From: Gemmatimonadota bacterium
Lineage (GTDB): Bacteria > Gemmatimonadota > Gemmatimonadetes > Longimicrobiales > Gaopeijiaceae
DNA length: 64,000 nt
Direction of reading: 5' to 3'
NCBI GenBank assembly: GCA_009692205.1
Contig: SHZR01000011.1
Coordinates: forward strand, 1-64,000
Part shown: piece after piece, positions 42,744 to 47,762 of the stretch
Numbering within the stretch: position 1 is the first letter of the stretch
Layout: each line of letters opens with the position of its first letter
The notes under the pieces: generated by a model
What the model was told of the DNA's origin: nothing
The model's input: only the letters and a program-made list of their open reading frames with translations
Databases searched by the model: none
Translations under genes and position numbers: made by a program

Positions 42744-44003
42744 GTGGCGACCAAGGTCCACATGGAGGCGCTCTCTCCGACCATGGATGAGGGCCAACTC
42801 GTGCAGTGGCTCCGGTCGGAGGGCGACCAGGTGGCGAGCGGGGACGTGCTCGCCGAAATCGAGACCGACAAGGCCACCATGGAGCTCGTCGCCCGTGGCG
42901 ACGGCATCCTGCGGAAGATCTTCGTGGGCGCGGGCGGCGTGGCGCCGGTCGGCTCCGTCATCGCGGTGATCGCGGGCAAGGACGAAGACATCTCCTCGAT
43001 CCAGGGCCCCGCGGGCGGCGCGGGGGGCGCTGTCGTCGCCAAGCCGGCGCAGGAGGCGGTCCGCGTGGAAGGCGCGCCGGTCCGTGCACCCGCAGCGCGC
43101 ACCGCTCCCGCGCCTGCCGCCGTGGAAGCCATCGGGAACGGAGGCCGCGTGAAGGCATCACCGCTCGCACGCCGGCTGGCCGAGGACATGGGGGTGGACA
43201 TCTCCCGCGTGCAGGGGTCTGGGCCGGGTGGGCGCGTGGTGAAGCGCGACATCGAGGCCGCGAAGACTGCGGGAGTACCCGCTCCGTCCGTGACGGTGTG
43301 GATTCCGGACGAGGCCGAGTACCAGGACGTGCCCACGTCGCAGATGCGCAAGACGATAGCCAAGCGTCTCGCTACGTCGATCGGGCCGGTCCCGACGTTC
43401 TACCTCACAGTGGACGTGGACATGTCGCGGGTGATCGAGGCTCGCGCGAGCATCAACGCGATGCTCGAGGCCGAAGGGCTGAAGGTCTCGATCAACGACA
43501 TCGTGCTGAAGGCAGTCGCCGCGGCGCTCCGTCGTCACCCCGAGTGCAACGCGCAGTGGCACGACGGCTTCGTGCGCCGCTTCAACTCGGTACACCTGGG
43601 CGTAGCGGTCGCGATCGACGACGGGCTGATCACCCCGGTGGTGAAGAACGCGCACGCCAAGGGCATCGCGCAGATGAGCGCAGAAGTGCGCGAACTCGCG
43701 GGTCGCGCTCGCGAGCGGAAGCTCGTGCCCGAGGAGTACACGGGCTCTACCTTCTCGGTCTCGAATCTCGGGATGCTCGGCATCCACGAGTTCACCGCGA
43801 TCATCAACCCGCCGGAGGCCGGCATCCTGGCGATCGGGGCGATGGAAGAAACGCCTGTGGTCATCGACGGCGCCGTCACCGTGCGACCGCGCATGCGCAT
43901 CACGATGAGTTGCGACCACCGCGTGATCGACGGCGCGCTGGGCGCGCGTTACCTACAGACGCTCCGCGCGATGCTCGAGGAGCCGACCGCGATCCTGCTG
44001 TAG
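42744..44003 (+). CDS. pdhC: Pyruvate dehydrogenase E2 (dihydrolipoyl acetyltransferase)
   Basis: E2 passes the acetyl group to CoA. The 419-residue product has one lipoyl domain (1-80; lipoyl Lys43 in ETDKATME), an Ala/Pro linker, an E3/E1-binding domain (KASPLARRLAEDMGVD...GPGGRVVKRDI) and the catalytic domain with DHRVIDGALGARYL holding the active His and Asp. Start GTG 42744. It completes lipA-pdhA-pdhB-pdhC. The E3 gene, lpdA, is 14 kb away at 58199. Confidence 0.95.
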   Translation: MATKVHMEALSPTMDEGQLVQWLRSEGDQVASGDVLAEIETDKATMELVARGDGILRKIFVGAGGVAPVGSVIAVIAGKDEDISSIQGPAGGAGGAVVAKPAQEAVRVEGAPVRAPAARTAPAPAAVEAIGNGGRVKASPLARRLAEDMGVDISRVQGSGPGGRVVKRDIEAAKTAGVPAPSVTVWIPDEAEYQDVPTSQMRKTIAKRLATSIGPVPTFYLTVDVDMSRVIEARASINAMLEAEGLKVSINDIVLKAVAAALRRHPECNAQWHDGFVRRFNSVHLGVAVAIDDGLITPVVKNAHAKGIAQMSAEVRELAGRARERKLVPEEYTGSTFSVSNLGMLGIHEFTAIINPPEAGILAIGAMEETPVVIDGAVTVRPRMRITMSCDHRVIDGALGARYLQTLRAMLEEPTAILL

Positions 44004-44015
44004 GGTCGGGAGCGG

Positions 44016-44654
44016 TTACCTACTCCAGGGTGGCACCACACTGTTGGCGCGCGCGTAGGAGATGAGCTGCCCGAGGTGCTCGTGCAGATCTGCCATCGCC
44101 GTGGCGATGTTGGCGTGCACCGGCATCTGCCGGCCGAAGTAGCTCGACGATTCGTTGCGCTTGGCCTCGTCCATGCCCCGGACGACGCCGATCAGGTGGT
44201 CGAACGCCGTGTTGAGCTCCCGGATCATCGCGGTCTTCGCGAAGCTGCCGACACGCTGGTTCTCAGGGCCGAAGCCGGTAGCTGCTCCCGCCGGCGGTGC
44301 AGAGCCCCACGCGGTCGGGAAGATATGCGCCTCGACGACCGCGAGCGCGAGCACGTCGCGCACGGACCGGACGCCTTCCATCGAGCGATAGTCGTACTGG
44401 GACTCGGTGAACGCCTCGGCGAGACCGATGAACTTGTCCTTCATCGTCTCGATGTCGGCGACTTGCACGTCCTTCCAAGACTGCATCTGAGCGGCTGAGA
44501 GCGTGGGCAGGCAGAGTGCCAACCACGCCAGCGCCGCGATCCGATGGAATGCCTCGGCATGTGCGTTCTCACGTTCGAAGACTTGGTGACGACACGGCAA
44601 TATCCGCTGCCGCCGGCCCCGTCGCCACCAGGAGCGGCTACGCGGCCGGCGCAC
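44016..44654 (-). CDS. Secreted DinB-like four-helix protein
   Basis: The mature part (about 150 residues) fits the DinB superfamily four-helix bundle: ETMKDKFIGLAEAFTESQYDYRSMEGVRSVRDVLALAVVEAHIF is typical of the first two helices (given here as flanking blocks), and DLHEHLGQLISYAR of the last with a potential metal His. A signal peptide (RIAALAWLALCLPTLSAAQ) precedes it, so it acts outside the cytoplasm. The start is unclear: GTG 44654 and TTG 44600 are in frame, while the nearest ATG lies in another frame, so a small frameshift before the signal is possible. Confidence 0.7.
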   Translation of the reverse strand: MRRPRSRSWWRRGRRQRILPCRHQVFERENAHAEAFHRIAALAWLALCLPTLSAAQMQSWKDVQVADIETMKDKFIGLAEAFTESQYDYRSMEGVRSVRDVLALAVVEAHIFPTAWGSAPPAGAATGFGPENQRVGSFAKTAMIRELNTAFDHLIGVVRGMDEAKRNESSSYFGRQMPVHANIATAMADLHEHLGQLISYARANSVVPPWSR

Positions 44655-44734
44655 TCGCGCTCGAACAGAGCGTGGCGCGAGCGCCTGGGCACGAGTAGGA
44701 TCGGGCGCCCAGAAACTGAAGAGATGCGGGATTC

Positions 44735-46654
44735 ATGATCGTCGCGCTCAAATCGTTGGCGCCTCCATCGCAGATCGAGTCCAGCCAGGCGAAGCACATT
44801 TCGTGGCTGGCGTCTCTCGATGCGCGGTGCCCGCATTCCCTGGGAACGGACGAGGAGTCTGCGGACGCGATCCTGTTGACCGACGCCGTCGGCGGTCCTC
44901 GGTTGGCGGGTGCACTGCGGAGGGACCCGTCCATCAAGGCGCACTGGGACAAGGTGTTCATACACTCCGAGGAAGCGAGACCCTTCCGGCTCGTTCCCGG
45001 GCTCTACACGTCGCTGGCCCGCCGAGCGGGGGACGAGGAGTTCGCGAGGGCCATCGGCTATCCGTGCTGGACGCCCAACGCGATGAACCTGTGCATCGAC
45101 CAGAACGCGGGGGTGCCTCCAGAGCGCGAGCCGGAACTGCTGTACTCGTTCATCGGGCGCAGAAGCCATCCGGTGCGTGATCGGCTCTTCCGGGCATCAC
45201 ACCCATCGGGCGTCACACTCGTGGTCGACTCGACCGACATCTACCGTCACTTCGTCGGCGGAGCCGGTTCGCACGAGGATGCGCAGCGGCGCTACGTGGA
45301 GATCGCGCTTCGCTCGCGCTTCGCGCTGTGTCCGCGGGGGTGGGCGACGTCGACGCTTCGGCTCTACGAAATGATGGCGTTGGGGGTCGCGCCCGTGATT
45401 CTGGCTGACGAGTGGGTGGCACCTCGTGGGCCCGACTGGGACCGGTTCGCGGTGTTCGTGCCCGAGCGGCTTGCGGCGGACCTTCCTGGGATCCTGAAAG
45501 AGCGCGAAGACGAGTGGCGCACGCTCGGCGCCGCGGCGTTCGAGGCTTTCCGGGAGTATTTCTCGCCCCAGCGACAATTTCGCACGATGACCACTGCGTT
45601 GGCCGACCTGCTGCCCGGCGCGGCGGGCGGGCGTCGGCGCCTTCGCCGCCGGTGGCCGTTGACGCTCCCCGCGGTCGCCGCGCGCCCGCACATCCGCGGC
45701 GTCGCTCGAAAACGAGCGGCCTCCGCTGCCCCGCGCGGGAGTCGTGACCCGGCCGGCACGGTCGCCCCGAGCGCGGCCAAGCGTGGCTACCTGACGATGG
45801 CCGTCGGCTCCGACCACTACTTGGAGATGGCGGTCGACATGGCGCTCTCCCTGAGGGAGCACACGCGACTCCCGGTAGCGATCGCGGTGGATGACCGGCT
45901 GGGCGCTCTGGTCCGGGATCGGTACGCTGGCGTGTTCGACTTCGTGGTTTCGGTGCCGCCACGCTTCCTCAAGGGTCGTGCGCTCAAGTACGGATGCGCG
46001 GAGGCGAGCCCGTTCGAAGAGACGATCTTCGTCGATGCGGACTGCGTCGTGCTGGGGAGCCTGGATGGAATGGCCGAAGCGCTCGCGCACGTCGATATGG
46101 CGATGGTGGGAGAGCTGCTCACGGTGGACGAAGACCAAATGCATCACGGCTTCTCCACGCGCGCATTGATGGGCCGTTTCGGGCTGGACCGCTACTTGAA
46201 GACCAACAGCGGGTTCTTCTGTTTCCGGAAGTCCGCCGCGATCGAGATCATGGACGAGTGCCTCGCGTGCTATCTCACCGAGGCCCGCCCGGCGCTACGA
46301 GGATCGATCCTGATCGGCCGTTGGCTGGGTGACGAGATCGCCTTCGGCATCGTCGGTGGCCGCAGGCGCCTGGGCACGCTGCCAGAGCCGGCCCCGATGT
46401 ACTGGCCGCGGGAGATCGAGCAGCTGGATCTCAGGAACCCGACCAAGCCGCTCTTGCACATGCTCTGGCCACTGCCGGAGTCAGCGTTGGAAGGGTTGGT
46501 GCAGGGGACGATCGAGCGGCGCCGTCGAGCGGGCGTGCCAGGAGACGCCGAGCGCCACTGGCGGCGCGAAGCCCGCAGCCTGCAATGGATGGCTCGGCGC
46601 CGTCGGTTGCGCGATCAACTGGCTCGTTCCCTGGGCGGTGCCCATATTGCCTAA
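44735..46654 (+). CDS. Two-module glycosyltransferase: exostosin-like (GT47) plus GT-A DxD domain
   Basis: The 639-residue protein joins two transferase modules. Residues about 30-285 match exostosin-type GT-B enzymes: FALCPRGWATSTLRLYEMMA then LGVAPVILADEWVAP is the hallmark. After a basic linker (about 290-345), residues about 350-560 look like a GT-A enzyme with GYLTMAVGSDHYLEMAVDMA, LKYGCAEASPFEETIFVDAD and the DAD metal motif at about 433-436. No signal or membrane segment. Neighbours give no sugar substrate. The fusion suggests sequential addition of two sugars to one acceptor. Confidence 0.8.
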   Translation: MIVALKSLAPPSQIESSQAKHISWLASLDARCPHSLGTDEESADAILLTDAVGGPRLAGALRRDPSIKAHWDKVFIHSEEARPFRLVPGLYTSLARRAGDEEFARAIGYPCWTPNAMNLCIDQNAGVPPEREPELLYSFIGRRSHPVRDRLFRASHPSGVTLVVDSTDIYRHFVGGAGSHEDAQRRYVEIALRSRFALCPRGWATSTLRLYEMMALGVAPVILADEWVAPRGPDWDRFAVFVPERLAADLPGILKEREDEWRTLGAAAFEAFREYFSPQRQFRTMTTALADLLPGAAGGRRRLRRRWPLTLPAVAARPHIRGVARKRAASAAPRGSRDPAGTVAPSAAKRGYLTMAVGSDHYLEMAVDMALSLREHTRLPVAIAVDDRLGALVRDRYAGVFDFVVSVPPRFLKGRALKYGCAEASPFEETIFVDADCVVLGSLDGMAEALAHVDMAMVGELLTVDEDQMHHGFSTRALMGRFGLDRYLKTNSGFFCFRKSAAIEIMDECLACYLTEARPALRGSILIGRWLGDEIAFGIVGGRRRLGTLPEPAPMYWPREIEQLDLRNPTKPLLHMLWPLPESALEGLVQGTIERRRRAGVPGDAERHWRREARSLQWMARRRRLRDQLARSLGGAHIA

Positions 46655-46676
46655 TCCACTCGACCGGGAGGGCTCC

Positions 46677-47762
46677 ATGGACGCGAGACACTCGACCTCG
46701 CTTTCACCGAGACGCCATGCACTCGCGCTGGCGCTCCTTACATCCAGCGTGCTCGCGGGCGCCCTCGAGGCGCAGTCGCGTCCCGGCGGGGCCGGCGGTG
46801 GATGGCATGCTCCTACTAACTCGTGGGGGCACCCGGACCTACAGGGCAATTGGACCAATGCCACGCTGACGCCGCTCACGCGATCCCCGGGCGTGGGGCC
46901 GACGCTCACGGTCGAAGAAGTGGACCGGATCGAGTCCGGTCAGGCGCAGCTGGTCGAGGACCGGGCGGCTCCGACCGACCCGAACAGGGCGCTGCCACCG
47001 GGCGGCGACAACCCCGTCTGCATCGACTCGGGCACGACGTGCTACAACGAGGTCTATCGCGACCCGGGCGAGCGCGTGGCGGTCGTGAACGGGGAGGCGC
47101 GGAGCTCCCTGGTCACGTTCCCAGCGGACGGGCGCGTACCGACGTTCACGCCGCAGGCGCAGGGGCTCATCGCCGAGATGCGCGTGCGCTCGCGTCAGTT
47201 CAGTGAGTACGACCACCCGGAACTACGTCCGCTGGCCGAGCGGTGCATCGTCTCGTTCGGCTCGAGCGCCGGCCCGCCGATGCTGCCGAACTACTGGTAC
47301 AACAACAACTACACGATCGTACAGAACGCCGATCATGTGATGATCATGGCGGAGATGGTGCACGACGTGCGCATCATCCGTCTCGGCGAGCCCCGGCCGC
47401 TCCCGGCCGACGTGCGCCCCTGGTTCGGTGACTCGTGGGGCCGCTGGGAGGGGAACACCCTCGTGGTCGAGACCACGAACATCAACCCAGAGCACGCGTT
47501 CCGCGGCGTTCCCTTTTCGCAGAGCGGCAAGGTGATCGAGCGCTTCACGCGCGCGGACTCGGAGACGATCCTCTACGAGTTCACGATCGACGACCCTGAG
47601 GTCTACACCAGCGCCTGGGGTGGCGAGATTCCGTTCCGGGCTCTCCACGACCTGGTCTACGAGTATTCGTGCCACGAGGGCAACTACGCTCTAGAAGGCG
47701 TGCTCCGCGGCGCTCGCTTCCAGGAGAGCTCGGAGAGCGTGGAGCCCGCGCGGGGCAACTGA
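46677..47762 (+). CDS. Secreted protein of unknown function
   Basis: The 361-residue product starts with a signal peptide (LALALLTSSVLAGALEAQS) and then a family common in environmental Acidobacteria- and Gemmatimonadota-like genomes, with HPDLQGNWTNATLTPL at the start of the mature protein, WFGDSWGRWEGNTLVVETTN, and IDDPEVYTSAW near the end. The WEGNTLVVET and Y-S-C-H-E-G-N pieces are the most conserved-looking. No known catalytic motif was found. ATG 46677 is set by the signal peptide. It follows the glycosyltransferase by 22 bp. Confidence 0.8.
   Translation: MDARHSTSLSPRRHALALALLTSSVLAGALEAQSRPGGAGGGWHAPTNSWGHPDLQGNWTNATLTPLTRSPGVGPTLTVEEVDRIESGQAQLVEDRAAPTDPNRALPPGGDNPVCIDSGTTCYNEVYRDPGERVAVVNGEARSSLVTFPADGRVPTFTPQAQGLIAEMRVRSRQFSEYDHPELRPLAERCIVSFGSSAGPPMLPNYWYNNNYTIVQNADHVMIMAEMVHDVRIIRLGEPRPLPADVRPWFGDSWGRWEGNTLVVETTNINPEHAFRGVPFSQSGKVIERFTRADSETILYEFTIDDPEVYTSAWGGEIPFRALHDLVYEYSCHEGNYALEGVLRGARFQESSESVEPARGN

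Follow-up and report, generated by a model that had tools for sequence, protein, structure and literature searches.

The window, a stretch of 64,000 nucleotides from a Gemmatimonadota genome of 2.72 Mb that is 97.9% complete, contains a fused glycosyltransferase gene that lies downstream of a gene for a dihydrolipoamide acyltransferase (E2) and of a small gene on the opposite strand (Table 1). The fused gene is a single uninterrupted open reading frame with an ATG start, 639 codons and no internal stop. It encodes an N-terminal GT47 (exostosin-type) module and a C-terminal GT8-like GT-A module, joined by a linker of 54 residues. Lys and Arg make up 26% of this linker, in keeping with the initial annotation, which had described it as basic; its GC content is 81.5%, and residues 292–350 carry 15 positive charges and 1 negative charge. 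In the model of the full protein, residues 277–346 have a pLDDT below 50. No membrane span was predicted in the protein (best 19-residue hydropathy 1.29), and its strongly basic linker and tail fit a membrane contact, although they do not show one.

The same fusion is present in a sister species, and comparison of the two proteins gave dN/dS values of 0.14 and 0.16 for the GT47 and C modules, respectively, against 0.46 for the linker; these values are rough, as dS between the two species exceeds 1. The linker is 48% identical between both proteins. Purifying selection on the GT47 and C modules indicates that both modules are maintained.

Table 1. Features of the fused gene and its neighbors in the window, with the comparable viral reading frames in the coordinates of their own loci.
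Feature	Position	Strand	Basis or remark
Dihydrolipoamide acyltransferase (E2), upstream neighbor	42744..44003	+	Named by eye from sequence
Small gene between E2 and fusion, DinB-like by eye	44016..44654	-	Also in sister genome, 72%
GT47 :: GT8-like GT-A fused gene	44735..46654	+	ORF, Pfam, sister comparison, fold matches
GT47 (exostosin-type) module, residues 1–295	44735..45619	+	PF03016, profile, model
Pfam core of GT47 module	45062–45499	+	PF03016
CPRG motif, residues 199–202	45329..45340	+	Invariant, 42-row GT47 alignment
Glu212	45368..45370	+	Invariant in 42 rows of GT47 alignment
Linker, residues 296–349, basic, GC-rich, presumably disordered	45620..45781	+	Composition, pLDDT
GT8-like GT-A module, residues 350–615	45782..46579	+	Model pLDDT, glycogenin match, A1 profile
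DAD (DxD) motif, residues 434–436	46034..46042	+	Invariant 15/15; aligns with WaaJ/WaaO DxD
His575	46457..46459	+	Kept in 14/15 rows; aligns with WaaJ/WaaO HxxGxxKPW-type His
Basic C-terminal helix, residues 605–632	46547..46630	+	Model, charge
Downstream neighbor	46680..47762	+	Adjoins E2 across genus
Viral GT47 :: Gly_transf_sug ORFs	L095, L096, L098: 2132–3745; L127: 2120–3757		Pfam

The assignment of the first module to the exostosin/GT47 type, which had been made by inspection, agrees with a match of residues 110–255 to Exostosin_GT47 (PF03016) at 5.5e-14 and 52.6 bits (cut-off 33.4); the sister protein reaches 54.8 bits. A profile of the module (A3) was built from six sequences, namely the modules of the window and the sister species together with stand-alone relatives from phage S-SKS1, genome G290, Gloeothece, and a plasmid of a Comamonadaceae. 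This profile found EXT1 first at 1.3e-18, with EXT2 and EXTL3 next. The nearest full-length relatives found are stand-alone bacterial proteins of 330–358 residues with 29–35% identity, from Gloeothece, Comamonadaceae, and the Gemmatimonadota genome G290. These “exostosin family” proteins resemble the N-terminal module over its full length but consist of a single module.

A second alignment (A4) holds 42 rows, in which 40 phage ORFs drawn from 67 viral loci replace the stand-alone relatives of A3. The model of the GT47 module based on it has a mean pLDDT of 62, being poor for residues 1–107 (pLDDT below 50) and mostly good from about residue 121. Its closest structure is EXT1 (Z 15.0 over 217 residues, rmsd 4.5), followed by EXTL3 (14.7) and EXT2 (14.5), and Foldseek agrees with these exostosin-type matches. 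Other GT-B enzymes score Z values of about 10–12, including the viral GT47 enzyme AO75L at 10.7, where the rows near 10 mean little because fusion-tagged receptor chains score there too. In the model, the C-terminal subdomain displays a clear GT-B fold of the exostosin type; the acceptor-side subdomain is tentative, as the first third is poorly modeled. All residues that are invariant in the 42-row alignment are present (S138, F139, G141, R148, S194, F196, C199, P200, R201, G202, R209, E212, P220, and P230). In GT-B enzymes, as described in PMC9178029, an Asp or Glu contacts the nucleotide ribose and a conserved acidic residue sits on the C-alpha-4 helix. Glu212 is a candidate for this residue.

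Beyond residue 346, no Pfam family matched the protein up to an E value of 10, and NCBIfam returned a weak match to Npun_R2823_gen; the second module belongs to a small family that is unnamed in Pfam. Its model is confident, with pLDDT mostly above 85 at residues 350–615. Among the 50 fold matches listed, glycogenin is the best (Z 16.8), and UGGT, LARGE1, LgtC (15.3), and WbbM (15.2) are also found, all with Z values of 15–17 over 204–239 residues. The initial annotation had proposed a GT-A module with a DAD motif and had named a non-transferase nucleotide-sugar fold as the finding that would speak against it. The motif (FVDADC) indeed lies inside the high-confidence GT-A model, and the fold is that of transferases such as glycogenin, LgtC, and WbbM. 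No EXT entry is among the 50 matches listed for the full-length model, a list that excludes no unlisted family. A profile of the C module (A1) reached glycogenin-2 at 2.9e-4 among PDB sequences, and the 22 PDB sequences it matched up to E 10 included no EXT or EXTL chain. GT64 is likewise absent from the Pfam matches of all 15 C-module members up to E 10.

The C module shares its GT-A fold and the positions of the DxD motif and the metal-site His with the GT8 retaining transferases glycogenin, LgtC, and WaaJ/WaaO, but no GT8 Pfam model matches any member; the only hit is PF11051 at E 0.018 in one of the 15. For this reason, we call the module GT8-like and do not assign it to GT8 itself. Residues D434, D436, and H575 align with D130, D132, and H264 of Escherichia coli WaaJ in three of three MAFFT modes, while the hhalign comparison of the C module with WaaJ/WaaO is weak (E 0.012, probability 3.6). 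Common to the 15 relatives are G351, YLEMAVDMALS (362–372), F432, D434-A435-D436, G532, and E534, among others. Judged by eye, an invariant GDE-type motif may correspond to the DQ region of GT8, with which it did not align.

Searches in 98 related genomes with the fusion protein gave matches in eight, of which two, the window genome (G000) and the sister species (G003), were full length. A scan of genome contigs returned 13 loci with one full-length match, L003, which is the same genome as G003. The C-module profile matched 16 of the 395 genomes of the phylum and PF03016 matched four. The three that exceed its cut-off are the two fusion genomes and G290 with its stand-alone protein; GT47 is thus very rare in Gemmatimonadota. 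Genomes beyond this phylum were sampled thinly. In the class of G414, PF03016 matched 7 of 385 genomes, three over the cut-off, and the longer GT47 ORFs found there (L143, L144, L146) carry GT47 at the C-terminus with no second transferase domain by Pfam. A plasmid search with the C module gave no match.

To describe the surroundings of the C module, 32 loci were merged manually into 19 distinct ones that lack GT47 plus the two GT47 fusions; the fragments L022/L038, L039, and L040 were excluded from these counts and from the tree. A GT2 gene (Glyco_tranf_2_3) lies directly upstream on the same strand in 15 of the 19 stand-alone loci, and anywhere in the stretch examined in 17. An ABC exporter gene adjoins the module on the opposite strand in 12 of the 19. 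These neighbors suggest a place for the C-module family in exporter-linked glycan synthesis. The window genome itself keeps a stand-alone copy (G000:C48), which is 63% identical. The fusion copies lack these GT2 and exporter neighbors in the stretches examined, and the 13.9 kb around the sister copy gave no homologue of either gene.

Several stand-alone loci show features of their own. At L018:1474–1481, the ORFs of the GT2 and the C module have a few bases in common, which suggests translational coupling. The C-module relatives at L012 (2247–6885) and L021 adjoin Stealth_CR2 genes, and L012 additionally has an MGDG-synthase-like gene and a GT2 gene; these clusters possibly serve a glycolipid or phosphoglycan. 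In a Rhodobacteraceae genome (L014:5944–8223), the C-module relative is followed by about 480 residues without a Pfam match, which presumably start with a sulfotransferase-like motif as judged by eye. L014, with its extension, is counted among the 19 loci without GT47.

As families, GT47 is inverting and the GT8 type is retaining; the fusion chain would thus combine an inverting site with a retaining one, as in exostosins. For GT64, the corresponding exostosin module, a retaining mechanism is described (PMC9178029). There is direct support for two intact modules, for their folds (weakly in the first third of GT47), for their conservation, and for an empty site in related genomes. On balance, we think that the fusion probably is a bifunctional two-sugar transferase, with an inverting GT47 and a retaining GT8-like half, acting on a surface glycan in the manner of exostosins or WbbM. 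The initial annotation had suggested a repeating or two-sugar unit, of which the two-sugar enzyme is the natural reading. Such an enzyme, which has no membrane spans, would perhaps be held at the inner membrane face via the basic linker and the basic C-terminal helix. Its GT47 domain (GT-B fold, presumably inverting) and its GT8-like domain (GT-A fold, DxD and His metal site, presumably retaining) would take turns in adding one sugar each to a glycan acceptor, probably one carried on a lipid. The C-terminal half would come from a Gemmatimonadota family whose members normally act right behind a GT2 enzyme in glycan clusters linked to an exporter; one branch of the genus would have joined such a module to a rare GT47 at a variable site beside E2. 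Counting against the bifunctional reading, no glycan genes lie beside the fusion gene, only two genomes carry it, the first third of the GT47 module is poorly modeled, and the C-module members do not match Pfam GT8.

The two sites might also work in repeated alternation to produce a long chain of beta/alpha disaccharide repeats, as do EXT1–EXT2 and WbbM, which would be a special form of the bifunctional reading. By analogy, this is a tentative and less likely option: exostosins likewise unite an inverting GT-B site and a retaining GT-A site in a single chain, and WbbM, a two-domain disaccharide-repeat synthase with a C-terminal GT8 domain (PMC12269835), is among the fold matches of the C module (Z 15.2). 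However, no genes for polymer export, chain length, or a lipid carrier were recognized beside the fusion, and a single two-sugar addition would be served by the same layout. WbbM, the Klebsiella O2a galactan synthase, is the nearest bacterial precedent, a single chain of GT111 and GT8 that synthesizes a disaccharide repeat (PMC12269835). Like the fusion, it is a bacterial two-domain protein with a C-terminal GT8-type module; unlike the fusion, it has GT111 (DUF4422) as its N-terminal domain (PMC12269835) instead of GT47, and no O-antigen cluster was recognized at the fusion. A bacterial polymerase, with an origin separate from that of the exostosins, that makes an alternating beta/alpha polymer resembling glycosaminoglycans seems to us a rather unlikely reading.

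It is improbable, though worth weighing, that one module alone is catalytic and its partner serves for scaffolding or targeting. Loss of activity does occur among GT47 domains according to a proposal for EXTL3 (PMC9178029), which offers a precedent, and in the present GT47 module the N-terminal third is modeled at low confidence. The motif residues are, however, kept in both modules, and the constraint on both is equally strong.

The initial annotation had likened the architecture to eukaryotic exostosins. This holds for the layout, as EXT1, EXT2, and EXTL3 (GT47 and GT64) also have an N-terminal GT47 module of GT-B fold followed by a C-terminal GT-A module with a DxD motif, and for the ancestry of the GT47 module, which is related to theirs in sequence (1.3e-18) and in fold (Z 15.0). 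It does not extend to the second module, which has GT8-type structures as its best folds among the matches listed and is not recognizably GT64. The fusion also lacks the N-terminal membrane helix of the exostosins (PMC9178029). A homologous GT47–GT64 exostosin was rejected on sequence, with no GT64 match by Pfam or by the PDB-chain profile search. The acquisition of an exostosin-family member from a eukaryote is accordingly very improbable even though EXT1, EXT2, and EXTL3 are the closest folds to the GT47 module, as the C module also falls among bacterial stand-alone modules in the tree and the nearest full-length GT47 relatives found (29–35% identity) are bacterial and stand-alone. The missing GT64 match together with the GT8-type folds means that exostosin ancestry is shared for GT47 only and that the architecture as a whole is convergent. 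A double enzyme of exostosin-like layout thus appears to have been made more than once in nature.

The fusion of the sister species is 74% identical to that of the window, and both have 639 residues that align without a gap, at the same locus and with the same neighbors. That two genes were falsely joined in assembly, which the initial annotation had raised against itself, or in annotation is ruled out by this gap-free chain in another species' assembly and by the uninterrupted frame in the window; nothing was found in favor of such a join, although the linker is of low complexity and GC-rich, and we give it next to no weight. The second genome with the full-length architecture likewise rules out chance. 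Between E2 and the gene downstream of the fusion (window 44003–46680; L064, L065, L066, L067) lies a variable site of the genus, either empty or differently filled. It is empty in the congeners G002 and G004, where the matched E2 and downstream-gene stretches are only about 230 to 245 bases apart; these genomes are 80% and 89% complete, and their junctions were read directly. Other genes occupy it in G001, and in the window genome and the sister species, it holds the fusion and the small gene, with one gene more in the latter. These empty and differing junctions across the genus imply that the fusion was gained there or lost more than once, of which the gain is simpler. In the tree, both fusions' C modules group together in a clade (99/99); the rows at the shortest path from it (0.70 to 0.94) are stand-alone C modules from within the genus, in a part of the tree where the branch order is not resolved. 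The downstream gene itself has many family matches per genome of the genus (8 in the window genome, 14 in G002).

In viral contigs, the N-terminal module alone found no relative, the GT47 profile found the 67 loci mentioned above, and the C-module profile found two weak partial loci. A phage search with the full protein matched the GT47 part only, in four records. Four of the 67 viral loci (L095, L096, L098, and L127) contain one ORF of 537–545 residues with an N-terminal GT47 and a C-terminal Gly_transf_sug domain (PF04488), which we take to be GT32-like. As in the bacterial fusion, a GT47 module and a DXD-type GT-A module share one ORF, but the second module is PF04488 and not of the GT8-like family. 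These phage-like ORFs are an independent GT47–GT-A fusion; together with the Gemmatimonadota fusion and the exostosins, they bring the number of distinct GT-A partners fused with GT47 to at least three.

Glycosyltransferases with two domains are known, but none that joins GT47 to a GT8-like module of an unnamed bacterial family turned up in the literature searched, which yielded neither a bacterial GT47–GT8 fusion nor any pairing of an exostosin with a Gemmatimonad. If GT47 and GT-A modules were indeed joined at least three times (with GT64 in animals, a GT8-like module in Gemmatimonadota, and a GT32-like module in phages), this would point to a predisposition of GT47 for pairing with a retaining GT-A enzyme to make two-sugar repeats, and the recurrence would make the pairing a testable evolutionary question. 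A bacterial GT47–GT-A protein without membrane spans could be handled more easily than the membrane-anchored exostosins, and it could serve to test how an inverting GT-B and a retaining GT-A in one chain share an acceptor. By eye, the four viral ORFs sit amid other sugar-related genes.
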